This document shows positions 3,663 to 38,584 of a stretch of 64,000 nucleotides of DNA, piece after piece. The stretch's first letter is position 1, and the number at the start of each line of letters is the position of its first letter. The stretch covers positions 1 to 64,000 of the forward strand of contig JAKSRY010000011.1 of NCBI GenBank assembly GCA_024403415.1, read 5' to 3'. A program made the position numbers and the translations under genes. The notes under the pieces are model-generated. The model saw only the letters and a list, made by a program, of their open reading frames with translations, was not told the DNA's origin and did not search any database. This DNA is from Lachnospiraceae bacterium. Lineage in GTDB: Bacteria > Bacillota > Clostridia > Lachnospirales > Lachnospiraceae.

Positions 3663-3688
3663 TATGTCAGATGACCGGAGGAATGAAT

Positions 3689-3862: not shown

Positions 3863-3942
3863 GAATTATAATGTTATTGCAACGAGAGGGACAACGAAAC
3901 GTTTATTACAGAACGGATTTATTATAGAAAGAGGAAATAAAA

Positions 3943-4995: not shown

Positions 4996-5000
4996 ATTTG

Positions 5001-14247: not shown

Positions 14248-14253
14248 TTGTTT

Positions 14254-16220: not shown

Positions 16221-16229
16221 AGGTTTATT

Positions 16230-16589
16230 ATGGCAAAGATACTGATTGTTGATGATTCAAGAACTTCGAGAAGAATGTTAAGGGCTGTTCTTGAGGAAAT
16301 CGGATATACGGAAATAGAAGAAGCGGTTAATGGTGAAGACGGGTTTATCAAATATAAGGAAATTAAACCTGATCTTGTTACTATGGACATTACAATGCCA
16401 AAACTTGATGGAATTGAGGCTCTTGAACTCATTAAAAAGTATGATGCAGACGCGAAGGTTGTTATGATTTCGGCAGCAGGGCAAAGAGAAAAGATGTTCA
16501 AGGCAATTAAGTATGGAGCGGCAGAGTTTATCACTAAACCATATGAAAAGAATGAGGTCGAAAAGATTGTAAAAGGACTTTTAGATTAA
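16230..16589 (+). CDS. CheY-like single-domain response regulator
   Basis: A 119-residue receiver domain with every key residue: the acidic pair Asp8-Asp9, phospho-acceptor Asp53 (LVTMDITMP), Ser81 (VMISAAG) and Lys103 in FITKPY. There is no output domain, so it acts by protein contact, like CheY at the flagellar switch or another target. It follows the CheX-like gene by 9 bp and ends before a strong terminator, giving a two-gene unit of regulator and probable phosphatase. No kinase, receptor or flagellar gene is in the window, so its target is unknown. Confidence 0.93.
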   Translation: MAKILIVDDSRTSRRMLRAVLEEIGYTEIEEAVNGEDGFIKYKEIKPDLVTMDITMPKLDGIEALELIKKYDADAKVVMISAAGQREKMFKAIKYGAAEFITKPYEKNEVEKIVKGLLD

Positions 16590-16638
16590 TATAGTTTTTA
16601 GACATTGAAAATTATTTATTATATGTTAAATAGGAATG

Positions 16639-16669
16639 GGACATTATCATTTTGATAATGTCCTTTTTT
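16639..16669 (+). terminator. Rho-independent terminator after cheY
   Basis: GGACATTATCA (16639-16649) pairs perfectly with TGATAATGTCC (16653-16663) around a TTT loop, and is followed by six Ts. It separates the CheX/CheY unit from the giant gene. Confidence 0.9.
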
Positions 16670-16748
16670 GTGCATTTTTTATATTTTTACCACTCATAAA
16701 TTGTATAAATTATTGCAAAAAAGTAATGTTTTTAACTGATGATGGCGA

Positions 16749-16754
16749 TATAAT
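16749..16754 (+). promoter_or_regulatory. Possible -10 element of the giant gene
   Basis: A perfect TATAAT lies 72 bp before the preferred start. No -35 close to consensus is found at 16-18 bp upstream, so this is a weak call, though the terminator just upstream means a promoter must lie between 16670 and about 16800 if the gene is transcribed independently. Confidence 0.35.
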
Positions 16755-16825
16755 ACTTTGGTACTATGTTAGGGAGGGGGAAGGTGTACCCTTCTTACAT
16801 TTTAATTATAGTCGAGGACAAACAG

Positions 16826-19800
16826 ATGAATAAGAAATCGAGAGTTAATAACTTAATTAATAGATCAATAAGTTTCCTGATGTCACTTGTAATGACTTTT
16901 GGAATGATGACATCAAATCTTGCTGTTATACAGGCAAATTCAGTGGAAGATCATGAGCATATATTTTCATATATATCTAACGGAGATGGAACTCATCTGG
17001 CCCAATGTAACCAGGAAACTGAATGTGATTATGAAGAATCTGAAGAATGCAGTTATGAAGAAGGAATCTGCACAAAGTGTGGATATGAAAATTATGAAGC
17101 AGCGCTGTTTTCGGATGGAGTTATTAATATATATGTCAAGGGCGAATCTGACAGTGCAGCCCAAAATGCATTTAAGGATAATGGAGCCAGCGTTGAATAT
17201 GGTCAAAAACTTATACTGTCGAGTGACGGAGTAGATGAAGAGCTTAATTTTACAATCAAGAAAAGTGGAAGTGATGAAGACGATTCTTTGTTTGATAATA
17301 ATGCGATATATTCTCCCGGAAGGTACTATATAGGCTGGACCTGCGATGAGAACGAAACTATTTATTATAATGGTTTTGAAGATTACTATTTCGATATCGT
17401 TCCTGCTAAACTTGCTGAACCTGAGGTCTCTTCTTTTGATTGGAATGGAGCAGAGGCAACCTTTGCTTCGGTAAGTAAGGATAGCAACGGAAATGATATA
17501 ACAGGAGATTCAGGCATTTCAGTTTCCTATATTGTAAAGATATATAAAGATAATGTTCTGGTAAAGACTTCAGAAGCAATAGAAGGTGTGGCTTCGGATG
17601 CGCATACATATTCTCTTCTTTCGCTTATTAATTCTCCGGAAGGCGGGGCAGGAAAATACGCATTTTCTGTAACGGCTATTAGCTCTGATGAAAGTTTCTA
17701 TACTGATTCCTCAGAGAGCAGTATATCAGACAGTGTTTTATATGTAACAAAAGTGACTCTGGACAAAGAGTCAGGTATTTCTTCAGCAAATGACAAAGCA
17801 TCTTCTGAAAACACATTTCTTCTTATTTCAGGTGATTCAACATACTCACAAAAGAACATTATTGCAACTCCGGATACTGAATGGCAGTTTCTGAAATGGG
17901 ATAATGATAATTCCAACATAACAATTGAAAACGAAAATTTAAGTGATACTACTATTACATATGGTGTAGTGAATGCCGAGGATTATAATTCGGAAATTAC
18001 AGTGACAGCAAAGGCGACAGAAAACAATGCACCTACTATTGTTACAGACAGCTTTGCAAAAGGTGAAGGTATTGACGAGGGAAAGATTGTAGCCAAGTCG
18101 TATGACAGACAAACAGGTGTTAAGTCTTATGCATTTGCAACAGAGGAACCCGTTGCTGATTCTGCCGCTTGGACTATCCTGGCTGAATCTGTAATTACGG
18201 GAGTTGAGGTGGCTGAAGAAGAGAGTCCGATTTACCGATTTGCTCCTACAGATTCCGGTGCATATAAATTTTACGTTAAAGATGAAGCGGGCAATATGGC
18301 CGTATCTGACAACACGGTAAATGTTTCTAAAATAAATCTTGATTCTTATTATGTGAATGATGCGAAAAAGACCGGAAGTGACAGTACAATTCTTCAAATA
18401 GGAGATAGTGAGATTGTACTTCCTACCGACGATATAAGCAGGAAAGGCTACGAGTTTAAGGGATGGTATGAAGATCCGGAATGTACCAGAAAGATTACAA
18501 GCATTACGACGAATTCCGGTGCTGATACGATGGTTTATGCCAAGTGGGAGTTCGTAACACCAACCTGGAGCAAAAACCTAAACTCTGAAGGATATAATTA
18601 TACCTATAATGGTCAGAACAGGGAGTTGACTGTAGAAGTCAATACATCTGCAGATGTTACATATGAATGGTTCTGCAAGAAAGATGGAGATTCAGAATAT
18701 GAACAGCTTGCCGAATCGTCAGATACGTTAACTGTTAGAAACGTTTCTGATTCAGGAAATTATTATGTTAAGGCAACAATCAGGTACACAGATAATGAAG
18801 GTGTTGAACAGATCTTTGAATTAGATAGTAACAATTCAGATATAACAATAGCGCCCAAGGATCTTACAGTTAAGGCAGATAGTAAGATAATCGGTTATCT
18901 TGGCAACATACCTGAATACACATATACCTATTATGGTCTTGTTGGAGATGATGCAGATAATGGATCATTGACAGCAAAAGGAAGGGAGAGCATCACAGAG
19001 GGAACTCTTAAGTGCAGTTATGCCAAGGGAGATGTGCCGGATTCATATGACATTGAGTTTGATGAGCATTTTGCTTCAAATGGAAACTATGCAATAACAG
19101 AAGAAGCTGGGCTGCTTACCGTTAAGGTGCTTAATGTCGGTGAAATTGGTGCAGTCATCAATCTTGAACAGACATCCTATGAATATACAGGTGAGGCCAT
19201 AGTGCCTGTATTTACGGTGACATATGAAGATGAGGATGGTAATACTGTAGCTATAGAGGCTGAAGACTTTGATATCTCATATGATGCAGAGGGAAATATC
19301 AAAGCCGGAACTCATACTATGAGTCTGACCTTTAAGCGTTATTATGAGGGTTCACTCGATACTGAATTTACAATTACTAAGGGTGTATTCGATGGAGAGG
19401 CTGAGGTTGAGATAGCTGATTGGAATTATGGAGAAAGCAAATCAGTACCCGATATAGTGACATCTACTCTGCCATCTGATTTGACAAATTATGATAAGAC
19501 ATACTACTACGTTCCCGGAGAATTAGAGGAAGCCAATTCATCAACAGGTGGAAGTACTGCAATACCAACTAATGCAGGAACATATTCAGTATACGCCCTA
19601 ATTCATGATAAAGACGGAAACTATCAGGATTTTTATACTAAGCCAACAACGTTTGAAATTGGTAAGAGAAAAATATTCATAAAAGCTAAAGATTATTCCT
19701 GGACTTATGATGGTAACTCTCACAGCTATCCGGTAACTGAAGAAGATCCTGGTTACACATTTGAACTTGCTGATGGAACTGTCATAACCGAGCATGATGT

Positions 19801-22800
19801 ATTTATTCTTCCATCAGAATCTTTTGCAAGTCTTGAACTTAGTGGATCTGTTAAGGATGTTGTTCTTGATTCAGAAGGTAATAATATTGGCGTTGACAAT
19901 ACAGTTATTTTCAACATGAAGGCAAATGCCGATAATTATGATATTGAATGTATTCCAGGAGTTTTGAAGGTTAATCCTGCAAAGCTTAATGTTCCTGCTA
20001 TGCCCAAATGGGATGATACAAAGCCCGGTCAGGCAACCTGGGTTGCTATTACGAAGAGAGATCTTTCTGTAGAATATCAGCTTCAGCTCTTTGTACAGGA
20101 TCCGGATGCAGGTACGACTACAATAATTAAAAATGGGGAATCAGATTATTTTGTGACTTCTGATACCCATTATGATTTCAGTGAGATTATTCATTCACAG
20201 ATTTCAACTAATTCTAAAAAATCATTTTATTTCACCATAAAAACACTGGTCAAAGATTCATCAGACCCGGATAAACTGATTAAAAATGACTACGCGAATT
20301 CAGATGTCTCAGCACCGAGTGCACCTATCTGTACAGTAACAGTATCCCTTACCAAACAGAAGGTATCTGATGAGACTGATAATCCGGGAATTGAATCAAT
20401 TGTATTCACAGATGAACAGTATAGGGGAAGGAATACAATTACGCTCATTTCCGGTGAATCTTTCAATATAAGAGTAGATGCAGCACTTGGATATAACCTT
20501 AATGAATTAGCGACGATTAATTCAGATGATTATAGTAAATTCATTGTCTCTTCGCATAAATATATCCATGATTTGAGAAGATATTATATAGAGGCAGAAC
20601 TTACAGTTAAATCGGATATTGCTGAGTCACTACCGGATGTCAGATTAACCTGTAATACAGAAGATGATTATCCTACCACAAGAAATCTGACATATGTAAA
20701 CTGTGAGAACCATGCAGAAGGTGTTAAGGTTAGCGCAGAACTATACGATGGGCTTTCGCTTAAGGACTGGATTATTGAAAAGGTTACAGAAAGACAGGAC
20801 ATAGTTGATGGAAAGAAGGTTACAACATATGAGCATGATTCCTATGTGGGCGACTGGCACAATGTTTCTGAGGATGGAAGTACAATAGGTAATAAGTGGG
20901 TCAGAATTGATACCATAGTAACAACTCCCGGAATATTAAGAATTCGTTGTCGAGATGCTGAAAATAACTGGTCAACCACAGGGGTATTTACAGTATATGA
21001 AATAAGCTTTGATAAAGGTGATACAGACGATACAGAACATGTAATGCAACCGATTTATAAGCTTGCCAATACAGAGATTTCTCTTCCAAAGCATACTTAT
21101 GTAAAGACCGGATATGCTTTTCAGAACTGGAAGGGAGAACATTCGGGAACAAGCGTAGATGAGGCAGTATACAAGGCTAATGTAAGCGATGTTTTGGTTG
21201 CACAGTGGACTAATAAACAGTATAAATATACAGTTAATTATTTCTATATGGATACAGAAGGGAATTATTCTGATGAGCCTGAATCTTCAGAAGAGTTTTT
21301 TGGAAGGTATGGAGAGGTTATAGTCGCTTCCGATAGTGGAGAGGATATTCAAACAGAGGCTATCCAAAAGCCACGAAAGAATTATAGGAATGATCCGGCC
21401 CCTAATGTTGATGAATATGTAAATTCTATTACACTGACTGAGAATGGCCAGGTATTGAATATATATTATAGTTCAGGAAACTATAAAATAACCTATGCCT
21501 ATAAAATACCGGGAACGGCCGAATTAACATATGAGATTGATACTGTAAGATATGGGGCTGAGGTTCCGGAACATATAAAGCCATCTGTACCGGGATATGA
21601 TTTCGTGGGCTGGGTATATGAAGGATATGGAACTGCACCTGATAAAATGCCGGCAGAAGATCTTAAAGCAAGCGGAAGCTTCATACCAAAGCAGGCAAAC
21701 TATAAGGTTGTCTACCATATGGAGACTTTGGGAGAAGGAGATTCTAAAACAGGTAAATATGTGATAGAGGACTCTCTTACACAGACTCTCAGAGGAAAAC
21801 ATGATGATTTAATAACTGCATATTTAACTAAAGATTCAGCCACAACTGCCAATGAGGTTGTAGCTAAAGAGCAGACGGGCTTCACAATTAATGGAATGAT
21901 TATAACAAGAGGTGGCGCCTATACTGAAAGTGATGAACTTCCTACCGTGGAAGGTTATTATGGCGCAGGTACCATCGTAGATAAGGTAAGCAGTATTGAT
22001 GGTGATATGATGTACATCAATTACTATTTTGAACGAAATGTCTATGATTATACCTTAAATGTATGGAAAGACAACAGAGAAAGCGAAGCTAACAAAAAAT
22101 ATACAAGAACTGTCAGAAAACAATTTGGGGAGGATGTTTCGGACCTCTCTACAGCGTATGCGAAGGATGAAACATATATAGGAAATGAAGAAACGGGAAC
22201 TGAACCTTCACTTCCGGGATTTGAAATGCCGGAAGGTTATATTTTTACGTCCTACACAGACTATTCAACCGGTAATCCGCCAAGCAGCATGCCGGGAAGT
22301 GATGTCATTGTAACAAGGGATATCATTTCAAATGAGAATATTGAATATACAGTAGAAATATATTTTGAGAAGTCGGAAATAGGTTCATATGACAAGATGA
22401 GCACTATCACCTATTCTGCGCCTGCAGGAAGTAGGCTTCATGTAGTTAAAGAAGAAACTCCTGATACAAGGGATTCGGGTGATGATAAATATATATACTA
22501 TGACATCGTTAAAAAGACAGTTAATAACAGTGATTATTATCAATATATAAATATCGAAAACACTTCGGTAGAAGAGGGAGTACTTACCAAGGGTGGAGAA
22601 CCTGTGGTGCTCAAACTGTATTTCGAGAGAATATATACAGATGTAATTGTCAAATACAGATATGGAAATACTCACTCAAGCACTCAGGCTGAAGAAATGG
22701 CATCCTTCACTTTGAGAGGAAAGTGGGGAACTACCTATGAATTTGATCCCGATGCATTGTTCTATGCTAATACAGATTCAGATTGGATTCAGAATTTCTA

Positions 22801-25800
22801 TGGTGATCAGCTTAAAGAAGGAGCAACGATTAAAAATGGAAGTACTGTTAATATAGCTGGAACAGAGCCTTCTGCAAATGCCCTGCAGAAAAATTTCTAT
22901 GAGGACTATATTGTGTCCTATGCATGTTATTATGAATATTTTGATGAGAATGGAAATCTAAGCAGAACGTGGCCTAATCAGACTATATCCTATAAAGGTA
23001 TAGGAGAAAAAGTTGCTGCTTCTACGCTTACTCCTTCAGGTTCAGGTTATAAAGTTTCAAATAATTCAAATGTTAAATTGAATAATACTGTGACCTGTTA
23101 CTTCAGTCCTACAAAAGTTTATAGTACCGCATATTGTTATATTAACTACAATCAGATCGAAGACACTACTAACTGGTATCTTAATCTGAAGGTTAATACT
23201 GATGAAAAAGCTTTTCCTAACAGATATGCCGAAATGAATGAGGATGGAACTCCTGCAAAAGATGGTGAAGAAAAAGAAATCAAATATGCTTCTTCCAAAG
23301 ATATAACTTTCAGCTATGATGGCAATAATTATCCGGTAAAGGCTCTTAATATTTGTGACATTCTGAATCATACACCGGGTGAGACAGCCGGAGAAGAGGA
23401 TGAATATCCGGCGGTAATTACTAAGAAGAGACGTTATCATTATTCGTCATTAACAGATACCAAAGCTGGATTTACGCATATTGCAGCAGGCGATCTTGGG
23501 GACGATTATTTCTATTATGATGGAACAGGTTCCCTGGGAAGTACTCCCTTTGTGGCTATAGCGGTTACAGACAACAGATTTATGTTTGGGGCATATACGA
23601 GCTTTAGTCATAATTATGCGGTTAAATTAACTATAGTGGATGGCGTTCTTACAGCTGAGACAACAAAAGTAAAATCTAATGAATATAAGCAGGTTGAAGA
23701 TATTATGCAGGATTATCAGAACCTGCATAGTGATAGTGGTAATGAAAACTTTTATGATTCAACCAATACTGCATTGTATATATATAATACAAGCTGGGGT
23801 TCTGCTTATGTTGCCGGTTCATGTGGAGACCTTGTTTATTCATATGCACATCGGGATGAACAGCGAATTACATATATGTTCGATGGCAGATTATGTACAA
23901 ACAGTGAGCATGTATATCCTTATGCAACAGTAGTACCTAAGGAAAGCGTGAACTGCCCTGAACTTAGTGCAGGAATACAGGATGGCTATGAGGTGGTGTG
24001 GTATACCGATGGTGCACATACCAACCATATTCCTGATGAGGGATTAATCATGAATCGTAATTACACGATTTATGGTCAGCTCGAAAAAACGGTTATATAC
24101 AATAAGGAATATATTTATTATGAACTTGCAGATGAACTTAATGGCCTGAACTATGTAACAATAAGTGATGTGAGTGATCCTGCGATTGAAGAGCATATTA
24201 CATCAAACGTTGTAGATACATCGGAAGTTTCTGTTCCGATATCGACTACTCAGACAGTCACCAAAACTGCTAAAACAACGGAATATTATTGTGATGGAGT
24301 TCTTGTCATAGTTGAAAAGGAACGACCGACATGCAGCTATACCGAGCTTCATCTGACAAAGGATACACAGGAACCAGCAAAATCATATGAAGAGGCATAT
24401 GGAAGAGAAGGATTTTTCTACGACGAAGCAAATAAAAATAACAGATCCTATGGATATGTAAATAACACAGCTCTTGAACTGAGGGTATTCTTTGAACGTG
24501 ACAGATATCAGGTTGAAATAATAGCTAATCATTCAGATACAAGTAATGCGGAATATAAGCAATTCTCAATAGATCATGCAGTTCGCCTTGGAGAATATAA
24601 CAAGGATGGTTATACTCTTGCCGGATGGGAATGGGAGAAGTTTGATAAGGCTACAGGAGAGTATGTGCCTTATACACCTTCGTTTGAACCCGGGCATGAC
24701 TATTTCAGAATGCCTGCATTTGACTTGAGAGCTACTGCGGTGTGGGAACCTGCAGAGTTTGAACAGCCTGTCACACATTATTTTCAGACTTCTTCACAGG
24801 CATATAATACGACATTTATTGCTTCTCTTGAAGGAAAGGAACCTGATGCCGTATTAAATAAAGCAGCCTTTAATGGCTTACTATATGATGCTTCAATATA
24901 TAAGTCAGGAGCAATAGAAGGAGTAGCTGTCAAAATAGATGACAATACTGTGTATTATTTCTCAACCGGAGAAATAAAGACTTCTTCAACGGTTGAGGTT
25001 AAAGAAAATGACCTTGTTGCAGCAACGACAATTATAACAGTTGAGAGTGAGGCAGAAACAGATCCCTCAGAAGGTGCTATTGAAGACTTTGGAATGTATT
25101 CATATTCATATACATCCTGTCATTCAGGCACTGAAGTAAATAAATATACTGCAGAAGACAAATATATACCTAAGTATGGAATGACACTTGAATATTTTTA
25201 TCAAAGATCGGCGGACTTAATGGTTCGTCTGTTAGCTGTGTCATCAGATGGTGGAGAGAGTGGTCTTGTATTAACAGGTGGTGGACATCATATGTTTGGT
25301 GAGAATGTTAATATTAAGGCAAACATAGCCTCAGGATACTCATTTATGGGATGGTACAGGCCTGAAGACATATTTAAGGATTCTGATGGAAATGATGTTT
25401 ACGATAAGGATTCAGATACAGAACTTGGTTCATATCCGATAAGAAAAGATATTGAAAGTGTTATTAAAGATGGCACAATCAGTCCGGTATTGACCGGTCT
25501 GATTCAGTCAGTTACTGTAACTGAAAATATCGATCTGGTTGCGGTTTCTGTGCCGGATGAAACAATTGCTCCTACACTCAGCATAACAGGTAATCAGAGC
25601 TATGATTATGGTTATCCTGCTTCTTCGAGCAACGCATTCATGGCAATAGCAGGAAAGCAGACATATACATCAGCAGAGGATCCTGACGGATCACTTGCTG
25701 TTCTCGCATCTAAAACAACAATTACAGGATATCAGTGGTACAGAGTTCCGGCCGAATTGTCTGAAGATGGAACTGAGGCCGTACCAACCGGTGAGGAAGA

Positions 25801-28800
25801 GGAGATAATTGAAGGTCAGACTTCATCAACTCTTCTTATTGAACGTGGAAAATCTGCCGGAGCATATATATACAGATGTAAGGTAAGCTATGTAAATAGT
25901 GATACCGGAAGAACCGGAACCATTGAAAAAGACAGAGGTCTTGTAGTAAATAAGGCTAAGATGTCTGTGGAAATAACTAATGTCGAAAAAATCTTCGACA
26001 ATAACTATTATCATATAACGCTTAATGTTATAGATCCTTTTGGAGATTCGGATACTACTATCTATTATCATGCGGATACTCCTCTTGATAAGGATAATTA
26101 TAGCACTATAGGAACTACAGAACTTCCTCAGTATAAGGATGTTAATCATGACAGTACAGGAGCCTGTGCCAACAAAACTTATATTTATATCAAAGATAAT
26201 ACAGGCAATTATGAGGATTATGTAGGTTATGGACTTGTAAATATTATTCCTAAGACAATTAGTATTAAGGCCAAAAATCAGATTTTTTCAAAGATTTATG
26301 ACGCCTCTGATGTAGTAACAGGTGATGTGACTGATTCATCAACCGATCTTGGTAAATTAGCAGCAGGCGTAGGCTCAATATATGAGCTTGTGGGCTTTGT
26401 AGACGGAGACACGGCTGTAGATTCATATATTCTTTCCTGCGATGCAAGATTTAATTCGATGCATGTTTCAAAGGCTAACAGCTTTACTGTCTCAAATATG
26501 AAGCTTGCATTTAAGACAAATGGAGACACTGCTTATAACTATGCTTTCCAGGCTACGGATACCCTGACATTTTCGGGTCACATAGAGCCTCGTTCTTTGG
26601 ATATTGAGTGGGAGGACAAAGAAGAATTTGTCTATAACGGAGAATTGCAGGCACCGGTTGTATCGTGGGCAGATACAGATAATAACAAAAATATTCCGGA
26701 AAGTGATAAAGGAAAAATCATCCTGACTACAACAGGAAAGCAGACCAATGTTACTGAGGATGGAAAAACATATACTGCATATGCACAGGCAATACATACA
26801 GTTGATGCACCATTTGAATCAGGGGATTATACATTCAATGATTTGAGTAAGAATTACAGAATTGTTCAGAGAAATATCTTTATTAAGCCTGTAGACACTG
26901 AGATTACATATAATGGAGAGAATCACACAATCACTGAATATAAGATTGTAGATGAAGATGGAAACGAAGATCTTGTTGCCAATGCTGATAAATACATAAA
27001 AAGTATAAGTGAACCGGACACCAAGGTTAATGCAGGCATCTACGATGAAATGGAATTTAAACATGATTTCAAAATCACATCAACAATAGGAAGAGACCTT
27101 ACTTATAACTATAATATCTCATATGAAAAAGGTACGCTTACAATCAAAAAGGCTAAGGTTACTGTAACGGGAATTGTGGCAGATGATAAGCCGTATGATG
27201 GTACCACAGATGCTGTTATACATATTAATAATCCGACAACCGGAGATTCATATCTTACATTTACTCCGTTATATTCTCAGAATGGAGTTGTGGATAAGCT
27301 GGATATTGATGTTTCAAAGATCGACGCAGTATTCGAGGATAAAGCAGCGGGAACAAACAAAGTCAATATTACTATCCCTGCAGACGCCCTTATTGGAGAT
27401 TCGGCAGATAACTATGAGCTTATTCCATCAACAGAGGTGTCAGGCAGCCAGAATTTTGCTACAGCAACAATAAGTCAGAATACCATTAAAGTTAAGGCTG
27501 TTCCTAAAACTGTTGTATATGGTGAAAGTGTCGACTTTGAATGTGAATACGAGAATATTATTAAGGAGGACGGAACATCCGGATGCTACGAAGATATCAA
27601 AGATAAAGTAACAGGTTCAGTGTCTTATTATATTAATACAGGAACGGATGAAGTACCTGTCTGGACCGGTTATACGGCAGGAGATATTAATGTCGGAGAA
27701 TATGAAATCAAGGTTGATGTTTCAAGTCTTTCGCACCCGGACTTTACATTCGAATGGGATGAGGACGAAGATATTAAGCTTGAAGTTACTAAACGTCCGG
27801 TAATGCTTGCAGCTATGAGTGCCACAATCAGCAAGGAATATGATGGAACAACCGATGTGGTGACAGTACCTGCTAAAAATACACATTATGAGTTTAAGAA
27901 GACAGAAGATATCGGAGGCAGTGAGGTTTCAGCATCGGGTGTTCTCTCAAAAGATGCCACAGACTTTGATCTTAGTTCAAAAGAATATGTTTATAATTCA
28001 AAGGATGTTGCAGATGCTGATAAGGTATTACTGACGGACGCTGTTATTAATAATGATAATTATGAACTTATTAATGATAATGTGGAAATTCCGGGTGAGA
28101 TAACTCCAATAGCATTAACTATCAGGGCTAAAGCTACAGAAATCACATATGGTGATACTTCACCTTCTTATGAAGCGGAATATGATGGATTTATTGATGG
28201 TGAAACCGAGTCTGTTTTAGATGGTGAGCTTACTTTTTCGAATAATGAATATGATCCTTCGGATTCCAATAAACGCCATGTTGGAACGTACACAGCAGAT
28301 ATTATACCTACAGGATTTGGCGCTGAAGATTCTGTAAATAATAACTATATTATTCATTATGTTCCGGCAGATATGACAGTTGAGCCGGCTGTAGTATATT
28401 TCACAGCAGATGATAAGGTTATGAGATATAAGGTCGGCAACGAAGAAGCCGGAATGACAGGCCAGGTTCCTACGTATACCTATACACAACCGGAATGGAA
28501 GTATGAAGGAGATGCGGCACGATATTCACTGACACTTACAATGCCACAGACCGAGACAGGACTGGAAGGTGATACGGCCATATCATGCTATACACTGCCC
28601 AAGGATTATCCAATTAAGATAAAGACTGATAGTTCAGGAAATGTCTTGGGAATTGAAAAGGTATCTGAAGAAGATACTCATACGGACTATATCTTTAAGG
28701 CAAAGGACGGCAAACTGACAGTTCAAAAGTTCCTGGTAAAGGTCACCGGTTCAATCACAATTGCTGACAGATACTATGACGGAACTGACAAAATATATAA

Positions 28801-31800
28801 TGAACAGCTGCCGGCAGATTATTCTACGTTAACCTTTGATGGAATTGATGATGTAGATAAATCTTATTCGGGAATTGATGTCGATAAACTTATAGCAGAT
28901 AGCAGATATGCAGGTACGAATGCAGGCGATAGTGTAACTATAACCCTTGATATAGCATTAAATGATTATCTTGCTGCAAGATATGAACTTGATTCTCAAA
29001 ATACAAATGTTACAGCAAGCTCTTCTATTAAAAAGCGGCCTGTAGAAATTAAGGCTAAGGATAAAACTATTAGATATGGTAGTCCGATTCCAAATGATTA
29101 TGGAATTGAGACTGTTCCGGTTGAGAGTCCATTGACATCAACTAACATGGGACTTGTAGAAGGCGATACTATAAGTGTATTTACTGCACCTACAGGCTAT
29201 ACCTGTGCTTATGCAGTAACCCCTGAATATTCAGCAACCGGAAGCTATGATGTCACACCGGTTGGTGTTACTGCAGATAATTATGAAGTTAATCCCGTAT
29301 CAACCGGAAGTTTGACGGTTACAGCCAATAAGCTTGCAACACCGGTGCCACAATGGAATGCTGAGGCACCCGGAACCGTAACCTGGACAGATATTCCTTC
29401 AATCGGAGATGTTACAGTTGCAGGTTATATTATTGAATTATATAAAGAAGGTGAAGCGACAGCAGTTGATGTCGAAGGAACAAAAGAGTCTCCGATAGAT
29501 GCTACAACCTATGATTTTGCATCTAAAATACGTGAAAATGATGGTGGTATATATAAAGTTAAGGTCAAGGCCATAGCCTCCTTGGTTATGAATGATGCTA
29601 ATTGTAATGTCACTGACTCTGATTTTGGAGAAACAGTTAAAGGTCTGTATGCCACAAGAGTAACGCCTGTATTTGACGGTAGTTCAGATGGAATAGGCGC
29701 TAAAGACGGAGGAAATAATCCGGTTTATATTAATAACCTTGGAGCTTCGGAATCGTATGTCATTATTGAAGGGGAAAGTCCTGTTGATCTGGTTGGAATG
29801 CTTAAAAATGATACAGGATACATTGCTTCATTAAGTGCTGATACCGGTATTACTCTAGGTACTACAGGAGAAGTTACTGTAAGTAAAGATGGAACTCAGG
29901 GAAAAGCAACAAGTACTATATGTGTTGAAAAAGATGCTGCTCCGGCTGCTGAAACCAATGTTATCATAACACTTACAGCAAGACCCGCTACATTAAAAGC
30001 AACTATATCTACAACGGATAATACATCGCTTACTTATGGATATACAGCAGTTCCGACATTCACAGTAACACCTTCTGTGGTTTCGGATAATATAGATACA
30101 GACGGATATGACTATACCTATGACTGGTATATTTTAATGAATAAGGCAGCTGCGTATACTCTGATGCATTCAGGAACTGAAAGCAGTTATTCATTCCCTT
30201 CAGGCTACAATGTTGGTGCGGATTACAGAGTACAATGTAAGGTTACTGCAACAAGAAAAGATAATGGACAGAAGAAAGAAGCGGTTATTGCAACAACAGG
30301 TTCGGCTGAACGATATATTAAGGTTGTGATTAAGAGGGGAACCTATGCTCCATATCTTACATATCATACAGTAGATGGTAACTGGGTATATGGAGAGACG
30401 AGAGAATATCCGACAATAGAAGGTCTGATGGAAGAAGTAACAGAGCATGCCGTTAAGACATTTAAGTATTCGACACAGATTTCAGGACCGTTTGATACAG
30501 ATAAAATGTATACAGATGTAGGAACCTACTATGTAATTGCTGAGTTGTCAGCAACTGAGAATTACGAATCGACAGCCACGGAGCCTATTTCTTATACTAT
30601 AACTCAGAATAAGCTTCCCAATCCTGCAAACGTTAAGATGGAGGCTTCTTCAACTGCGCCTTATGGTAAATTTACCTGGGATGCAGTTGACGGATACAAG
30701 GAAAATGCAGGCGCTGTGGGAAAATCAGACTCTGATATTAAGGTTAAATATGAATTGAGGCTTTCATATAATCCTATTGGTGAAAGTGATCCTGTATTTA
30801 TTGGTGATCCTGTAATAACTACAGACTGCTATTATGATTTTACCAGTCTTATTAAGGAACCGGGAACCTATCATGTATCTGTTAAAGCGATAGTAGATGA
30901 AAAGCGTGGTGGTAAGGATGCCCTGAACTGCCTTGATAGTGATGCTGTATCAATTGATGCAGTTATCACAATTGGTGCAGATGTGATCTCAGACACAGGA
31001 GAAGCAGATACTACAGGCTTTAGAAGAGTATATGATGGTACTCCTCTTAAACTGAAGGTAAATTATTCTGCAGGTTCAGATCCTGGAATCACATATACTT
31101 ATCAGTGGAAGAAAAATGGTGTGAATTATACCGGCGATGGAGCTAATACTGATGAAATATCGATTACTTATGTGGATGAGAACGCAGTATTTGTCTGTGA
31201 GGTTATTCCGTCAACCGATCATAAGCCGGTATATACCAAAGCTGTAACTGCAACAATTATTCCAAGAAAGATTACTGTTTCTACTGATAGTAATGTAAAG
31301 ACTTACGATGGTACACCATTAACAGACGGTGATTACAGTATTAAGCTTACAGGTTATGATGCTGCCGGACTTGCAGCCGGGGATACTGATTCAATTAATG
31401 TAAAGGGCCAAGCTACAGAGGTTGCTGATACTGCTACCGGAAATAACACATATGATAATCTTGTTATTAAACGTGGAGATAAGGTTGTTTATAAGGCGGG
31501 TGAAGCAAACAACAACTATGAAGTTACAGACAATCTTGGAACTTTAACAATTAATAAAAGACAGATTACTCTTAAGCCTAAAAATATTAATGCAGAATAC
31601 AAGGGAAGTGCTTATACTCCTTCAGATTATGAAATAGTATCAGGAACTCTTGTATCAGGAGACAATATAGACAATGTAACCTACACAGGAAGTAGAAGAG
31701 ATGTTGGAGAGAGTACATCAAACATAAATACCGGTGTTAAAATCATGAAGAGCGGTGAGCCTGCTACTGATAATACTGCCAATTATGATATAACACTTAA

Positions 31801-34800
31801 CACTGGAATAATTACTGTTACGGCTAAGACAATACTTATTAATACAGAATCGGATTCTAAGGATTATGATGGTACTGCACTTACTAAGCATAGTGCGTCT
31901 TTAGCCGGTACCACACCATTAGCAGATGGGGATAGCATTGATTTTGAAAATGACATAACCTGGACCGGAATCCAGACCAATGCCGGAGAATCTGATAACA
32001 GTATATCTTCGGTTGTGGTTCGTCAGGGAACTGAGGATGTAACAAAGAACTATATTGTAACTTATAACTTTGGAAAACTTACAGTAAATAAGCTTGAGCG
32101 TATTATTACAGCTTCGGATACCACTGTTGATTATGATGGAAATTCTCATACCATTACTGCTACAGCAACGGGAATTTTGGATTCAGATAATGCAACTACA
32201 CTTTTGAAGTATCAGGTTAATGGTGAAGACTTTGCAGGAGCTATAGAGCGTGGAGAATATGTAATAACGATTACTGCTCCTGAAACTACTAATTATACTT
32301 TGGCTACCAAGGATGTGAAGCTTACAATTAAGCGAAAAATCAAGATTACAGCCGCTTCAGACAGCAAAGATTATGATGGTACTGCTTTGACTAACAGTAA
32401 TTATACTGTAGCTTTCAGTAATTCACTGCTTACAGGTGATGCTTTGGCATCAGGAGATAATATCACAGATATCACTATAACCGGAACGCAGACTGTGAAG
32501 GGAAGCTCAGGTAATGTTCCTTCAGGTGCAGTTATAAAGGATAGTGACAGTAATGATGTTACTAAGTTCTATGAGATAGCATATGTTGATGGAACCCTGA
32601 CAATAGGTCAGAAAACACTTACGGTTACTGCTAAATCAGCAGAATGGGATTATGATGCCACCGAGCACAAACTTAATGAATATGAGCAGGAAGGCTTGGC
32701 TGATGGAGAAACTCTGACAGTAACCTTTAAGGATAGCTCAAAGATTACAGATTACGGAACCGTGACTAATGAAATAGATACTGTTAAAGTATTTAAGGGT
32801 GATGAAGAGGTAACGGGCAACTACTCTATTATCACGAAGTCTGGTGAATTGAAAGTAAAGAAGATTAATCTTAAGTTTAAGCCGGTAAATGTAACGGCAG
32901 TATATGATGGTAATGCCCATGTTCCGGTAGCATTTGAAATAACAGAAGGCAGCCTTAAGGGTTCTGACGCTATAGGTGAAGTTGTATATGCAGGAACCAG
33001 AACCGATGTTGGTAATACTGCTTCCGGAATTTCCTCTTATAAGATTAAAAATGGGGCAAAGGATGTCACAAATAACTATAATGTTATAACTGATATTGGG
33101 AATATAGAGATTACGCCGTACATTTTGACAGATGGAGATCTGACTATCAGCCCCGAAGCTTTTGAGTATACAGGAGCTGATGTAGGTCCTTCTATGATTA
33201 AAGTGGCTGTTGACCTCATTAATGCTGATAAGCATGATCGATCGACAGTAATAACTGAGGGAAGTGATTATACAGTAACCTCAGATGATAATAAACGAAA
33301 AACTGCAAGTCAGGTTGGAACATATACTATAGAAATCACCGGTACAGGAAACTATTCGGGAACTCTTTCAAAGATTTATACTATAACGGATAATAGCAGT
33401 GCTGTTATTAAGGATGGAAAAGAAAACGTTCTTGCGGATGCAAGTATAAATATATACTGTAAAGAAGCTAAGATAGTTGTTACTGATCCTAATCTTTATT
33501 CTGTAGTTATAACCAATTCAACCGGTGAAGAGGTTGCTAAGCAGGAAAATATAACTGAAGGAACTTATTCATATACCCTTGAAGGTCAGGGAGAGGATAT
33601 AGATACTCCGGCTGATTATACTGTTACAGTCAAGGATGTAAAGGGAAAAGCTATGGACGGAACCCTTTCATATAATGAACAGACAGTATATATCAAGTTG
33701 TACCCGGATCATCATTTTGACAATTACACGGTATGCGACAAAGCACCTATTGGTGAGGTGTATGAAGGAACATGTATTCATGATCCTTGTGATGCTAAGG
33801 ATTATATTATTAAGCCATCAGGAACGGTTAGATGGGATTATAATTATAGTTATTCCACAACAACAGGAACCCAGGAAGGAACGAAGGCGCATGACCAAAG
33901 GGCAACCTATGCAAGAGTAGATCTGTACATGAATAATCAGATTGTTGCCAGTAAGATTGTTGACTGCGATAGTCAGTGCGGGATCTCGGGAGCATACGAC
34001 GAGGGAAGCTGTACATATACTTTTGAAGGTTATAATCCCTATGATGCGGCTTCAGATACAGGACTTAGCTATCTCCCATATTACAATAACGAAGGTTCAG
34101 TTAATAATTTCCATATAAGGGTTGTGCCATTGACTAAACTGGGAGATGGAAGCTATGAAAATGTAGTTGATTATACAGTTACTTATAGTATGGATAATCT
34201 GCCTGAAGATAATGCCCTTATTGAATATAAGCCCGGTTGTTTCGAAGTGCCTTGGATGGTAACACTTAAAGATGTTCCAGAGGGAATGGTTCCGGAAGAA
34301 ATATATGTAAAAATACTTTATGCATCCTCTGAGGATGATGAAGATGAGGATTATCGTATAATTACTCAGCAGATAAGCCCTGACAATAAGGGATTCCTGT
34401 GTGATGCTATTGATAATGGTGATGGTACTTATTCTTATAGTGGAGAGTATCCTTGCTGGAAATATATAAGTGGTACAACTAAAACTTATTATCATAGGAT
34501 TCAGATTACAGGCTATGTGGTTGATGGACATTATGTTGATACTTCTTCAAAGCGCTTTATGTCTGCATGTGATAGGGATCATATTAATCATACAGTGACC
34601 TATGATCCAGCAACAGATGCCTCTACAGGTACAATTCAATATACGCTTAACGGTCTTGTACCAACACTTATATTTGATGTCAACTATGGTAGCGAGGACA
34701 GGGATGTTTATGCCATACTTGCAGCCGGAATCGATGCCTTTGGTAATGGTGGGGAAATAACTAACGCTGATTTTAATTCAGTGCATAATCCATCAAGACC

Positions 34801-36082
34801 CGGTTATACTTTCCAGGGATGGTTTACCTCACCTACAGGCGGAACAAGAGTAACAGGAGATGTTAGTCTTGCGGAGGGAACTGTAAGACTTTATGCTCAC
34901 TGGATGATAACAAAACCTGCTGGGGCTCCAAACGAAATCCCTTCTGAAGATGAAGGTTCACCTAATATTACATTATCACCCAAAACCAGTACTTCGCCTA
35001 CACCTATAGTAGTTCCAAATCCAGTGGAAAGCCCTACTAATAAGCCGACGGATAACGGCGGTAAGCCAACAAATGATGATGTTGTTGAGAATAGTGGTAA
35101 AGAATCTCCGGCGCCTGTTCCTTCAAACAAGCCTAATGACAGTGAAGGAGAGGACTCAAAGAGTGGATCACTGAAGGTATATGTTGAAAATACTGGTGAT
35201 GATACATCAGATGGTAATACTAATACTGATAGCCCTGATGCCGGTGAAGATAAGGTTAAAGACAGAATCACAGGAGATTTGCCGGATACTGAAGCTGTTG
35301 CAGAGGCAGTGCTTACAGATGAGGAGAGAAAAATCCTCGAAGAGGGTGGAAATATTGTTATAAGGCTTACAGTAGATGACAGTAGAAAGAATAAGCCTTC
35401 TGAAGAAGAAGATCCGGCGCTCTATATTGTATTAGATCAGTATGAAAAGGAGAGTCAGGAGAATATTCCGGGAGGAAAGGCTGTATTCATCTCCTTTGTA
35501 GATTTGAAGCTCGAGAAGAGTATAAATGCTGCTGACTGGGAGCGAATTCTTGAAAGTGGTATGGAGATTCCGGTTGTAATCGATTTGCCGGATGGAAGTG
35601 TTTTAGGTGCAAGGCGTCTTGTTCTTGCTAGAAGAGAGGGAGATCATTTTGTTATTCTGGAAGACCTTGATGATGATCCTAATACAATCACTTTTATGAC
35701 GAATGATTTTGAGAGTGATTATGTATTACTTGGAATAGAAGAAATTGAAGAGCTTACAGAGGATAACGATTGCTTCTGGCACTGGTTGATTCTGCTTACA
35801 GGTATTATTGAGCTCATGATACTTCTTATAACTAAATCAAGGAAAAAGATAGAGGAAAAAGATGATCCTGAAATAACTCCGGAAGAGATAGAAAAGAAGC
35901 GAAAGAGAGTACGTAATATCAGAATAGCTGATTATGTACTGGGCACAAACATTTCCCTTATCTTTGCAATATTTGGAACCTGCTGGTTGGATTGGCCGGT
36001 ATTTGCAGTTCAGGTAGTTGTATGTACAATTGCAGAATATCTTAAGGAAAAGAAAAAGAAGGAAGATGAACAGGCAGGTTAA
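16826..36082 (+). CDS. Giant 6418-residue modular surface protein
   Basis: A single frame of 19,257 bp without interruption. A signal peptide (1 to about 38) is followed by a short His/Cys segment (45-90), FN3-like modules (about 194-309, 1052-1175, 4166-4286, 4596-4716), InlB B-repeat/MucBP-like units (529-577, 1392-2025, 2562-2652, 5926-6029) and many Ig-like modules with an xYDGT/xYNG start (YDG/MBG type; dense at 3045-4166 and 4722-5522). A non-repetitive region covers about 2025-2552 and a ten-cysteine region 5635-5922. A Pro/Thr/Asn linker (6030-6146), a membrane-proximal domain and three hydrophobic segments (6317-6336, 6370-6407) with a Lys-rich end close the protein. No LPXTG anchor. 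GAGGA at 16814 supports ATG 16826; GTG 16784 behind AGGGAGG is a rival start. Likely an adhesin or stalk (inference). Confidence 0.9.
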   Translation: MNKKSRVNNLINRSISFLMSLVMTFGMMTSNLAVIQANSVEDHEHIFSYISNGDGTHLAQCNQETECDYEESEECSYEEGICTKCGYENYEAALFSDGVINIYVKGESDSAAQNAFKDNGASVEYGQKLILSSDGVDEELNFTIKKSGSDEDDSLFDNNAIYSPGRYYIGWTCDENETIYYNGFEDYYFDIVPAKLAEPEVSSFDWNGAEATFASVSKDSNGNDITGDSGISVSYIVKIYKDNVLVKTSEAIEGVASDAHTYSLLSLINSPEGGAGKYAFSVTAISSDESFYTDSSESSISDSVLYVTKVTLDKESGISSANDKASSENTFLLISGDSTYSQKNIIATPDTEWQFLKWDNDNSNITIENENLSDTTITYGVVNAEDYNSEITVTAKATENNAPTIVTDSFAKGEGIDEGKIVAKSYDRQTGVKSYAFATEEPVADSAAWTILAESVITGVEVAEEESPIYRFAPTDSGAYKFYVKDEAGNMAVSDNTVNVSKINLDSYYVNDAKKTGSDSTILQIGDSEIVLPTDDISRKGYEFKGWYEDPECTRKITSITTNSGADTMVYAKWEFVTPTWSKNLNSEGYNYTYNGQNRELTVEVNTSADVTYEWFCKKDGDSEYEQLAESSDTLTVRNVSDSGNYYVKATIRYTDNEGVEQIFELDSNNSDITIAPKDLTVKADSKIIGYLGNIPEYTYTYYGLVGDDADNGSLTAKGRESITEGTLKCSYAKGDVPDSYDIEFDEHFASNGNYAITEEAGLLTVKVLNVGEIGAVINLEQTSYEYTGEAIVPVFTVTYEDEDGNTVAIEAEDFDISYDAEGNIKAGTHTMSLTFKRYYEGSLDTEFTITKGVFDGEAEVEIADWNYGESKSVPDIVTSTLPSDLTNYDKTYYYVPGELEEANSSTGGSTAIPTNAGTYSVYALIHDKDGNYQDFYTKPTTFEIGKRKIFIKAKDYSWTYDGNSHSYPVTEEDPGYTFELADGTVITEHDVFILPSESFASLELSGSVKDVVLDSEGNNIGVDNTVIFNMKANADNYDIECIPGVLKVNPAKLNVPAMPKWDDTKPGQATWVAITKRDLSVEYQLQLFVQDPDAGTTTIIKNGESDYFVTSDTHYDFSEIIHSQISTNSKKSFYFTIKTLVKDSSDPDKLIKNDYANSDVSAPSAPICTVTVSLTKQKVSDETDNPGIESIVFTDEQYRGRNTITLISGESFNIRVDAALGYNLNELATINSDDYSKFIVSSHKYIHDLRRYYIEAELTVKSDIAESLPDVRLTCNTEDDYPTTRNLTYVNCENHAEGVKVSAELYDGLSLKDWIIEKVTERQDIVDGKKVTTYEHDSYVGDWHNVSEDGSTIGNKWVRIDTIVTTPGILRIRCRDAENNWSTTGVFTVYEISFDKGDTDDTEHVMQPIYKLANTEISLPKHTYVKTGYAFQNWKGEHSGTSVDEAVYKANVSDVLVAQWTNKQYKYTVNYFYMDTEGNYSDEPESSEEFFGRYGEVIVASDSGEDIQTEAIQKPRKNYRNDPAPNVDEYVNSITLTENGQVLNIYYSSGNYKITYAYKIPGTAELTYEIDTVRYGAEVPEHIKPSVPGYDFVGWVYEGYGTAPDKMPAEDLKASGSFIPKQANYKVVYHMETLGEGDSKTGKYVIEDSLTQTLRGKHDDLITAYLTKDSATTANEVVAKEQTGFTINGMIITRGGAYTESDELPTVEGYYGAGTIVDKVSSIDGDMMYINYYFERNVYDYTLNVWKDNRESEANKKYTRTVRKQFGEDVSDLSTAYAKDETYIGNEETGTEPSLPGFEMPEGYIFTSYTDYSTGNPPSSMPGSDVIVTRDIISNENIEYTVEIYFEKSEIGSYDKMSTITYSAPAGSRLHVVKEETPDTRDSGDDKYIYYDIVKKTVNNSDYYQYINIENTSVEEGVLTKGGEPVVLKLYFERIYTDVIVKYRYGNTHSSTQAEEMASFTLRGKWGTTYEFDPDALFYANTDSDWIQNFYGDQLKEGATIKNGSTVNIAGTEPSANALQKNFYEDYIVSYACYYEYFDENGNLSRTWPNQTISYKGIGEKVAASTLTPSGSGYKVSNNSNVKLNNTVTCYFSPTKVYSTAYCYINYNQIEDTTNWYLNLKVNTDEKAFPNRYAEMNEDGTPAKDGEEKEIKYASSKDITFSYDGNNYPVKALNICDILNHTPGETAGEEDEYPAVITKKRRYHYSSLTDTKAGFTHIAAGDLGDDYFYYDGTGSLGSTPFVAIAVTDNRFMFGAYTSFSHNYAVKLTIVDGVLTAETTKVKSNEYKQVEDIMQDYQNLHSDSGNENFYDSTNTALYIYNTSWGSAYVAGSCGDLVYSYAHRDEQRITYMFDGRLCTNSEHVYPYATVVPKESVNCPELSAGIQDGYEVVWYTDGAHTNHIPDEGLIMNRNYTIYGQLEKTVIYNKEYIYYELADELNGLNYVTISDVSDPAIEEHITSNVVDTSEVSVPISTTQTVTKTAKTTEYYCDGVLVIVEKERPTCSYTELHLTKDTQEPAKSYEEAYGREGFFYDEANKNNRSYGYVNNTALELRVFFERDRYQVEIIANHSDTSNAEYKQFSIDHAVRLGEYNKDGYTLAGWEWEKFDKATGEYVPYTPSFEPGHDYFRMPAFDLRATAVWEPAEFEQPVTHYFQTSSQAYNTTFIASLEGKEPDAVLNKAAFNGLLYDASIYKSGAIEGVAVKIDDNTVYYFSTGEIKTSSTVEVKENDLVAATTIITVESEAETDPSEGAIEDFGMYSYSYTSCHSGTEVNKYTAEDKYIPKYGMTLEYFYQRSADLMVRLLAVSSDGGESGLVLTGGGHHMFGENVNIKANIASGYSFMGWYRPEDIFKDSDGNDVYDKDSDTELGSYPIRKDIESVIKDGTISPVLTGLIQSVTVTENIDLVAVSVPDETIAPTLSITGNQSYDYGYPASSSNAFMAIAGKQTYTSAEDPDGSLAVLASKTTITGYQWYRVPAELSEDGTEAVPTGEEEEIIEGQTSSTLLIERGKSAGAYIYRCKVSYVNSDTGRTGTIEKDRGLVVNKAKMSVEITNVEKIFDNNYYHITLNVIDPFGDSDTTIYYHADTPLDKDNYSTIGTTELPQYKDVNHDSTGACANKTYIYIKDNTGNYEDYVGYGLVNIIPKTISIKAKNQIFSKIYDASDVVTGDVTDSSTDLGKLAAGVGSIYELVGFVDGDTAVDSYILSCDARFNSMHVSKANSFTVSNMKLAFKTNGDTAYNYAFQATDTLTFSGHIEPRSLDIEWEDKEEFVYNGELQAPVVSWADTDNNKNIPESDKGKIILTTTGKQTNVTEDGKTYTAYAQAIHTVDAPFESGDYTFNDLSKNYRIVQRNIFIKPVDTEITYNGENHTITEYKIVDEDGNEDLVANADKYIKSISEPDTKVNAGIYDEMEFKHDFKITSTIGRDLTYNYNISYEKGTLTIKKAKVTVTGIVADDKPYDGTTDAVIHINNPTTGDSYLTFTPLYSQNGVVDKLDIDVSKIDAVFEDKAAGTNKVNITIPADALIGDSADNYELIPSTEVSGSQNFATATISQNTIKVKAVPKTVVYGESVDFECEYENIIKEDGTSGCYEDIKDKVTGSVSYYINTGTDEVPVWTGYTAGDINVGEYEIKVDVSSLSHPDFTFEWDEDEDIKLEVTKRPVMLAAMSATISKEYDGTTDVVTVPAKNTHYEFKKTEDIGGSEVSASGVLSKDATDFDLSSKEYVYNSKDVADADKVLLTDAVINNDNYELINDNVEIPGEITPIALTIRAKATEITYGDTSPSYEAEYDGFIDGETESVLDGELTFSNNEYDPSDSNKRHVGTYTADIIPTGFGAEDSVNNNYIIHYVPADMTVEPAVVYFTADDKVMRYKVGNEEAGMTGQVPTYTYTQPEWKYEGDAARYSLTLTMPQTETGLEGDTAISCYTLPKDYPIKIKTDSSGNVLGIEKVSEEDTHTDYIFKAKDGKLTVQKFLVKVTGSITIADRYYDGTDKIYNEQLPADYSTLTFDGIDDVDKSYSGIDVDKLIADSRYAGTNAGDSVTITLDIALNDYLAARYELDSQNTNVTASSSIKKRPVEIKAKDKTIRYGSPIPNDYGIETVPVESPLTSTNMGLVEGDTISVFTAPTGYTCAYAVTPEYSATGSYDVTPVGVTADNYEVNPVSTGSLTVTANKLATPVPQWNAEAPGTVTWTDIPSIGDVTVAGYIIELYKEGEATAVDVEGTKESPIDATTYDFASKIRENDGGIYKVKVKAIASLVMNDANCNVTDSDFGETVKGLYATRVTPVFDGSSDGIGAKDGGNNPVYINNLGASESYVIIEGESPVDLVGMLKNDTGYIASLSADTGITLGTTGEVTVSKDGTQGKATSTICVEKDAAPAAETNVIITLTARPATLKATISTTDNTSLTYGYTAVPTFTVTPSVVSDNIDTDGYDYTYDWYILMNKAAAYTLMHSGTESSYSFPSGYNVGADYRVQCKVTATRKDNGQKKEAVIATTGSAERYIKVVIKRGTYAPYLTYHTVDGNWVYGETREYPTIEGLMEEVTEHAVKTFKYSTQISGPFDTDKMYTDVGTYYVIAELSATENYESTATEPISYTITQNKLPNPANVKMEASSTAPYGKFTWDAVDGYKENAGAVGKSDSDIKVKYELRLSYNPIGESDPVFIGDPVITTDCYYDFTSLIKEPGTYHVSVKAIVDEKRGGKDALNCLDSDAVSIDAVITIGADVISDTGEADTTGFRRVYDGTPLKLKVNYSAGSDPGITYTYQWKKNGVNYTGDGANTDEISITYVDENAVFVCEVIPSTDHKPVYTKAVTATIIPRKITVSTDSNVKTYDGTPLTDGDYSIKLTGYDAAGLAAGDTDSINVKGQATEVADTATGNNTYDNLVIKRGDKVVYKAGEANNNYEVTDNLGTLTINKRQITLKPKNINAEYKGSAYTPSDYEIVSGTLVSGDNIDNVTYTGSRRDVGESTSNINTGVKIMKSGEPATDNTANYDITLNTGIITVTAKTILINTESDSKDYDGTALTKHSASLAGTTPLADGDSIDFENDITWTGIQTNAGESDNSISSVVVRQGTEDVTKNYIVTYNFGKLTVNKLERIITASDTTVDYDGNSHTITATATGILDSDNATTLLKYQVNGEDFAGAIERGEYVITITAPETTNYTLATKDVKLTIKRKIKITAASDSKDYDGTALTNSNYTVAFSNSLLTGDALASGDNITDITITGTQTVKGSSGNVPSGAVIKDSDSNDVTKFYEIAYVDGTLTIGQKTLTVTAKSAEWDYDATEHKLNEYEQEGLADGETLTVTFKDSSKITDYGTVTNEIDTVKVFKGDEEVTGNYSIITKSGELKVKKINLKFKPVNVTAVYDGNAHVPVAFEITEGSLKGSDAIGEVVYAGTRTDVGNTASGISSYKIKNGAKDVTNNYNVITDIGNIEITPYILTDGDLTISPEAFEYTGADVGPSMIKVAVDLINADKHDRSTVITEGSDYTVTSDDNKRKTASQVGTYTIEITGTGNYSGTLSKIYTITDNSSAVIKDGKENVLADASINIYCKEAKIVVTDPNLYSVVITNSTGEEVAKQENITEGTYSYTLEGQGEDIDTPADYTVTVKDVKGKAMDGTLSYNEQTVYIKLYPDHHFDNYTVCDKAPIGEVYEGTCIHDPCDAKDYIIKPSGTVRWDYNYSYSTTTGTQEGTKAHDQRATYARVDLYMNNQIVASKIVDCDSQCGISGAYDEGSCTYTFEGYNPYDAASDTGLSYLPYYNNEGSVNNFHIRVVPLTKLGDGSYENVVDYTVTYSMDNLPEDNALIEYKPGCFEVPWMVTLKDVPEGMVPEEIYVKILYASSEDDEDEDYRIITQQISPDNKGFLCDAIDNGDGTYSYSGEYPCWKYISGTTKTYYHRIQITGYVVDGHYVDTSSKRFMSACDRDHINHTVTYDPATDASTGTIQYTLNGLVPTLIFDVNYGSEDRDVYAILAAGIDAFGNGGEITNADFNSVHNPSRPGYTFQGWFTSPTGGTRVTGDVSLAEGTVRLYAHWMITKPAGAPNEIPSEDEGSPNITLSPKTSTSPTPIVVPNPVESPTNKPTDNGGKPTNDDVVENSGKESPAPVPSNKPNDSEGEDSKSGSLKVYVENTGDDTSDGNTNTDSPDAGEDKVKDRITGDLPDTEAVAEAVLTDEERKILEEGGNIVIRLTVDDSRKNKPSEEEDPALYIVLDQYEKESQENIPGGKAVFISFVDLKLEKSINAADWERILESGMEIPVVIDLPDGSVLGARRLVLARREGDHFVILEDLDDDPNTITFMTNDFESDYVLLGIEEIEELTEDNDCFWHWLILLTGIIELMILLITKSRKKIEEKDDPEITPEEIEKKRKRVRNIRIADYVLGTNISLIFAIFGTCWLDWPVFAVQVVVCTIAEYLKEKKKKEDEQAG
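30990..33390 (+). repeat. Dense array of YDG/MBG-type Ig-like modules inside the giant gene
   Basis: About nine consecutive modules of 80-95 residues each open with a Lys/Thr-rich strand and a Y-(D/K/T)-G signature, for example near 31027, 31305, 31590, 31860, 32130, 32370, 32650, 32900 and 33166. Two modules share the exact 17-mer gattatgatggtactgc (31862-31878 and 32369-32385), a trace of recent duplication. The rest differ strongly at DNA level, so most copies are old. Confidence 0.8.
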
Positions 36083-36103: not shown

Positions 36104-36132
36104 CTGAAAATCAATTTTGTTTTTGGTATAAT
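36104..36132 (+). promoter_or_regulatory. Extended -10 promoter of glgP
   Basis: CTGAAA (36104-36109), a 17-bp spacer and TATAAT (36127-36132) preceded by TGG, an extended -10. It gives glgP its own start point after the giant gene, between which no terminator hairpin is visible. Confidence 0.6.
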
Positions 36133-38535: not shown

Positions 38536-38584
38536 TGTATATAATGACTGTATTGTAGATAATAATAGATTTTTGGATAAAAAA

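Follow-up and report, generated by a model that had tools for sequence, protein, structure and literature searches.

The described proteins that come closest to the one reported here are the fibrillar adhesins, CdrA and the Periscope Proteins, and a set of giant proteins from Apilactobacillus kunkeei. We analyzed a window of 64,000 nucleotides from a Lachnospiraceae bacterium (contig JAKSRY010000011.1, positions 1 to 64,000), in which one gene encodes a protein that resembles each of these systems in part. As described in PMC8286594 and PMC9210967, fibrillar adhesins and fibrillar adhesin-like proteins are, like the giant, very long and threonine-rich and, as predicted for it, secreted and provided with a surface anchor, and they carry repeated stalk domains, MBG-type, YDG and Flg_new among them; YDG is given as a stalk domain in PMC9210967. 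The giant has 6,418 residues, against a mean of 1,196 in the positive training set of that paper, and its composition (Thr 10.3%, Leu 4.8%) deviates in the direction published for fibrillar adhesins. Unusual length and repeated stalk domains, two of the traits that define this class, are both present. In contrast to the proteins in these accounts, the giant gave no Pfam match to a known adhesive domain, although its orphan region might be a new one; its candidate binding region lies in mid-chain, it lacks a sortase motif, and its head, long and fixed, combines modules of several types.

CdrA and the Periscope Proteins, as presented in PMC8201768 and PMC7616799, share with the giant an MBG_2-type stalk (MBG_2 repeats make up the stalk region of CdrA; PMC8201768) and a module number that differs between relatives. 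CdrA differs in its size of 220 kDa, with a reach of 70 nm (PMC7616799, PMC8201768), and in its two-partner secretion across an outer membrane. Unlike the Periscope Proteins, the giant shows no near-identical repeats, TRF having found no DNA-level tandem repeats in the window, and its variation in module number is seen between genera. Giant1-5 of A. kunkeei are likewise extracellular proteins (3,000-8,000 residues) of a Gram-positive host, mostly rod-like and proposed to be adhesins (PMC12863079). That account gives them N-terminal β-solenoids (Giant1-4), an SH3b-like C-terminus, a five-gene cluster and no predicted transmembrane segment, whereas the window giant is a single, solitary gene whose product has a C-terminal hydrophobic anchor; no SH3b-like C-terminal Pfam domain was found in the giants scanned. 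Among the top-ranked open-access papers, we found no account of a corresponding giant family, some of our queries being broad. This is consistent with the original prediction of a possibly undescribed combination of modules, core and anchor, except that neither core nor anchor is a one-off.

A family of collinear giant proteins

The giant gene (16826..36082, forward strand) is a single frame of 6,418 codons plus a stop, open from 16766, and its product has a mass of 707 kDa and a pI of 4.4. The chance of so many stop-free codons is ~10^-213 at this base composition, and GC content by codon phase is uniform throughout. The ATG at 16826 is preceded, 7 nt upstream, by a Shine-Dalgarno-like sequence (Table 1). 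The leader also contains, at 16771-16796, a run rich in G and then a small hairpin, which may act as an untranslated control element. Collinear giant frames in five other assemblies make a chimera or missed stop improbable; the expectation of one uninterrupted giant gene is borne out.

These relatives were found by searching residues 2001-3000 against 200 genomes of the same family. Eight genomes matched, the source genome included: giant frames occur in four (here G011, G160, G103 and G129), and in three the match is confined to a short InlB-like stretch. When a profile of residues 4320-4640 (A2) was run over 397 family genomes, it added a giant in G575 and gave near-full matches (at least 320 of 332 positions) in six genomes, the source again included; the other 49 of the 55 genomes with an A2 match, covering 189 positions or fewer, were not counted as family. 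Twenty-six loci, matched by residues 5801-6418, were judged as a group, from the matched query residues, to be InlB B-repeats and not relatives. All counts from genome searches are lower bounds, since the initial search stage scores few candidates. Three of the five further giants are complete (G011, 6,940 aa; G103, 6,892 aa; G575, 6,062 aa) and two run off a contig end (G160, 5,405 aa; G129, 4,614 aa).

With each relative, the window protein gave one collinear BLASTP match of 4,825-5,994 columns at 25-28% identity and 1,233-1,587 bits, spanning the orphan core described below; the top out-of-register match scored 171. When the relatives were permuted as 250-residue blocks (20 shuffles each), the best score was 348. 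Because the collinear scores so exceed those of permuted blocks, the alignments indicate that module order, and not merely module kind, is conserved. The six giants are a real and apparently undescribed family, not a one-off or an assembly error. The core had been thought unique to the window gene; it instead belongs to a family present in six sampled genera, the searches for homologues having yielded five further giants.

Conservation is uneven along the chain. The head, up to the residue equivalent to window residue 4700, measures 4,204-4,700 residues and keeps its module order in all six giants. Variation is seen in the membrane-proximal MBG array and at the C-terminus; the tail past this point has 1,387-2,736 residues in the four complete giants. 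An HMM made here, which gave no match in 30 shuffled sequences, gives MBG-like module counts of 18 for the window protein, 35 for G011, 24 for G103 and 12 for G575; the two giants cut by a contig end have 20 and 9. These counts are approximate, since some HMM envelopes cover more than one module. Past residues ~4,560-4,790, the complete giants have 7 (window), 22 (G011), 14 (G103) and 4 (G575) such modules, so most of the difference in number is located there. An Fn3/Big_2-like tail closes the giants of G011 and G103, and the membrane anchor closes those of the window and G575.

Within the genus of the source organism, only its own genome (one of six) has the giant. No relative was found when the core was compared with plasmids and phages and A2 with viral contigs; there is thus no sign of a mobile element. 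The neighborhoods of the carriers differ, and by eye no conserved neighbors were seen around the giants. The G011 giant (L051/L052, 5407-26229 of the joined pieces) begins, by eye, ~90 bp after a ribosomal protein L1-like frame, a position within what is usually a ribosomal operon; close by are two further large frames that resemble surface proteins (1,565 and 1,212 aa).

Module layout and the central orphan region

Table 1. Features of the giant gene and its flanks (all on the forward strand; residues are those of the window protein)
Feature	Positions	Strand	Basis or remark
Terminator-like hairpin 3' of upstream response-regulator gene	16638..16664	+	Terminator-like site scan
Shine-Dalgarno-like GAGGA	16814..16818	+	Read directly
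Predicted Sec-type signal peptide, residues ~1-38	16826..16939	+	Positive start, hydrophobic 17-35; sequence, cleavage site inferred
Cys/His-rich stretch, residues ~43-90	16952..17095	+	Sequence
N-terminal module block, residues 181-1929	17366..22612	+	Fn3-like, InlB B-repeat, Ig-like, MBG_2
Central orphan region, residues 1930-2540	22613..24445	+	No Pfam, no PDB match; Tyr-rich
Residues 2541-2940, InlB-like stretches	24446..25645	+	Conserved in 6/6 giants
Residues 2941-4700, Ig-like, YDG, MBG_2 and Fn3-like modules	25646..30925	+	
Membrane-proximal MBG-like array, residues 4787-5499	31184..33322	+	Seven modules; HMM
InlB B-repeat (Flg_new), residues 5982-6025, near C-terminus	34769..34900	+	Pfam
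Pro/Ser/Asp-rich linker, residues ~6030-6109	34913..35152	+	Read directly
Juxta-anchor domain, residues ~6110-6300	35153..35725	+	Common to other surface proteins of the family
Membrane anchor, residues 6316-6418	35771..36079	+	Helix 3 and topology inferred by eye
Promoter-like site preceding phosphorylase gene (start 36183)	36104..36132	+	TATAAT with TG before it

The predicted mixture of extracellular module types was confirmed: Flg_new, Flg_new_2, MBG_2 and YDG (32.6 bits against a cut-off of 25) all score above the Pfam cut-off. Ig-like domains fall below it, and the label Fn3-like is our own reading. All four MBG_2 matches in the source genome fall within the giant gene; the best InlB B-repeat match of that genome lies in another frame, of 460 residues (G000:C10:42016-42216). 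At the extreme N-terminus (residues 1-180), the window protein has six cysteines, against 0-2 in the five relatives.

Internal repeats were traced by comparing a profile of the six giants against itself in tiles. An Fn3-like module recurs at residues ~190-300, 1047-1180, 4162-4285 and 4583-4700, and an Ig-like module at ~590-690, 2920-3050, 4380-4500 and 4730-4830; by HMM, MBG-like modules lie at 644-1199, 3210-4323 and 4787-5499. Residues 181-590 recur in the same order at ~1047-1472, a correspondence that we read as an old duplication. Tiles lacking an internal match run longest at residues 1831-2590; such tiles also occur at 2631-2990, within 3031-3190 and 4231-4440, and at the two protein ends. 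Residues 2640-2935 have no PDB match. The MBG block matched contactin-5 in the PDB only at E 0.053 and 0.47, which we judged to be chance.

The longest of these runs contains the central orphan region, for which neither Pfam (window protein) nor the PDB gave a match; two Pfam families, each in the core of one of the six giants (E 0.05 and 0.069), were dismissed as chance. Tyrosine makes up 9.7-13.3% of the core across the six giants, against 4.3-8.9% in other regions, and in every giant the core is richer in tyrosine than each of the remaining five regions. Core identity to the relatives is 22-29%, below the 29-33% of residues 2941-4700, which are the best conserved part, and the alignment holds 17 invariant columns, including nine Tyr and four Gly, among which no catalytic set is evident. 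The core is known only from the six giants in the samples searched: among 398 genomes of the phylum its profile matched the source genome only, as did residues 2159-3000 among 392 genomes of the order, both sample listings being silent on whether other carriers are included.

The C-terminal anchor and the surroundings of the gene

The C-terminus probably forms a three-helix element, with CFWHW at helix 1, a Lys/Arg-rich loop, helix 2, a GTCWLDWP turn, a short helix 3, and a Lys-rich tail. Hydropathy gives two clear hydrophobic stretches, and the third helix was recognized by eye. These C-terminal hydrophobic segments with their Lys-rich flanks are the kind of sequence evidence expected of a surface anchor, and direct reading of the last 260 residues revealed no LPxTG-like motif. 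The charge of the loop after helix 1 and of the tail suggests that both lie inside, in which case both invariant cysteines would be outside. The nearest named model is FILTED (NCBIfam NF052597), to which the anchor scores 18 bits against a cut-off of 40, placing it outside that family by this test. In the PDB, 12 sequences (receptors, kinases) at E 0.16 and above were judged to be chance matches.

The last hundred residues align with the C-terminus of the G575 giant and with a 389-residue frame of another genome, G171. An anchor search of 387 family genomes matched 28 at E 0.01 or better, five of them strongly (E 2.4e-12 or better), namely the three profile members, G660 and G037. The strict signature C-x-x-H-W ... 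G-x-C-x-L-D, in a scan of 116 loci (835 kb) that additionally required 45% hydrophobic residues, occurs in only those five genomes; the other 23 matches (E 3e-5 to 0.01) were dropped, the signature being missing in the loci examined. It sits on a giant in two of the five genomes. In G660 (L090:1459-1785) it makes up an independent 108-codon frame that lacks a large outer part, and in G037 (L091:634-1749) the anchor shares its frame with an outer domain but is cut off from it by a stop codon. The original prediction of an unusual membrane anchor therefore stands as regards a hydrophobic C-terminus without LPxTG; homologues of the C-terminal part do exist, so that the anchor is not peculiar to this protein. 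The last 418 residues matched 15 of 199 other genomes, and in 14 of these the match included at least part of residues 6101-6341, indicating that the domain before the anchor recurs. Of the C-terminal tails of 14 loci, all but those of L002, L012 and L014 were read.

The gene was predicted to stand alone between a terminator and the glgP promoter, with no sortase nearby. Upstream, there is a terminator-like hairpin (Table 1), and the interval 16200-16900 contains four terminator-like sites on both strands, against 0.2 expected; downstream, the gene at 36183 encodes a carbohydrate phosphorylase (PF00343), termed glgP in that prediction. Promoter-like sites number three against 1.7 expected, and the one before this gene is hence weak. 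Upstream of the giant are a CheX-like gene, which scores 27.1 bits against a cut-off of 27, and a response-regulator gene, neither with a demonstrated connection to it. The giant gene has no evident operon partner. No sortase is encoded among the ten window genes scanned with Pfam, but the genome has two, both on other contigs. Elsewhere in the window, next to an MBOAT O-acyltransferase gene, and after it, comes a frame of 324 residues that has no Pfam match (12850-15222 for the two) and that from its position we take to be DltD/AlgJ-like; the two are perhaps a cell-surface polymer acylation pair. An Rce1-like (CPBP) intramembrane protease gene (38573-39352) lies two genes 3' of the giant, with no evidence linking them.

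Proposed function and alternatives

We consider it reasonably probable that the giant is a very large fibrillar adhesin-like protein, composed of an orphan binding region, a rod of β-modules, and a sortase-independent anchor. Its signal peptide points to export by the Sec route, after which the three-helix element would hold it in the membrane. Of the two invariant cysteines, the first just precedes helix 1 and the second belongs to the turn that joins helices 2 and 3; both would be exposed on the outside, and a disulfide between them might clamp the anchor. The fixed head of ~4,200-4,700 residues, with its Fn3-, Ig-, InlB-, YDG- and MBG-type modules, would be raised off the cell by the membrane-proximal MBG array; we infer a fibre that, scaled by mass from CdrA, might be ~200 nm long. 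The likeliest site of contact with a ligand, perhaps a glycan or another polymer, is the orphan region at the center of the head, since it is the longest shared part without internal repeats and is rich in tyrosine.

Several observations count against this adhesin-like role. Pfam scans of the giants found no known adhesive domain, and the orphan region lies in mid-chain, whereas adhesive domains in Firmicutes, as PMC8286594 describes them, are usually N-terminal. No other stretch free of internal repeat matches is as long as this region, yet several exist. Two of the four complete giants (G011 and G103) are without the anchor, which argues against a uniform mode of attachment, and presence is patchy, with none of the five other genomes of the genus carrying a giant. 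Some of the same facts fit an envelope scaffold or matrix protein, whose chain would build a surface coat or a cell-cell matrix and whose core would be structural and bind no ligand. Module order is kept through the whole head and not at one tip only, head length is nearly constant, and the two anchorless relatives could be released into a matrix. We nevertheless regard a scaffold as unlikely: occurrence in 6 of 397 family genomes and in none of five other congeners ill suits a general part of the envelope, and the Tyr-rich central region differs in kind from the repeats.

Still less likely is that the core is an enzyme or substrate-processing domain, acting for example on polysaccharide, with the rest of the chain as a tether and spacer. 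Its location in the longest stretch without internal repeat matches, among binding-type modules, would suit such a domain, but the missing Pfam and PDB matches and the character of the invariant columns, chiefly Tyr and Gly, speak against it. An assembly artefact or a decaying gene, that is, modules of several genes joined together or a frame not expressed whole, might be suspected in a source genome of 77 contigs and 87% completeness, but is hardly credible given five other assemblies with collinear giant frames and an unbroken frame of even codon-phase GC.

Returning to the fibrillar adhesin-like reading, a bolder form of it, which we advance only as a speculation, is that the head is an order-dependent assembly and not a passive stalk, with the orphan region as a central receptor and a cysteine-clamped anchor that may sense tension or load on the fibre. 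The head is kept across six genera at 25-30% identity; the CxxHW...GxCxLD element, being found also as a small stand-alone frame, may have a role beyond anchoring.

A common view of giant surface proteins is that they are strings of repeats that shuffle rapidly. In the present family, unlike modules stay in one order across more than 4,000 residues in six genera, together with a shared orphan center, which suggests that module order itself is under selection. The core and the anchor are short, defined targets for structural and binding work, and the anchor signature may explain some of the fibrillar adhesins without a known anchor, of which PMC8286594 describes many.
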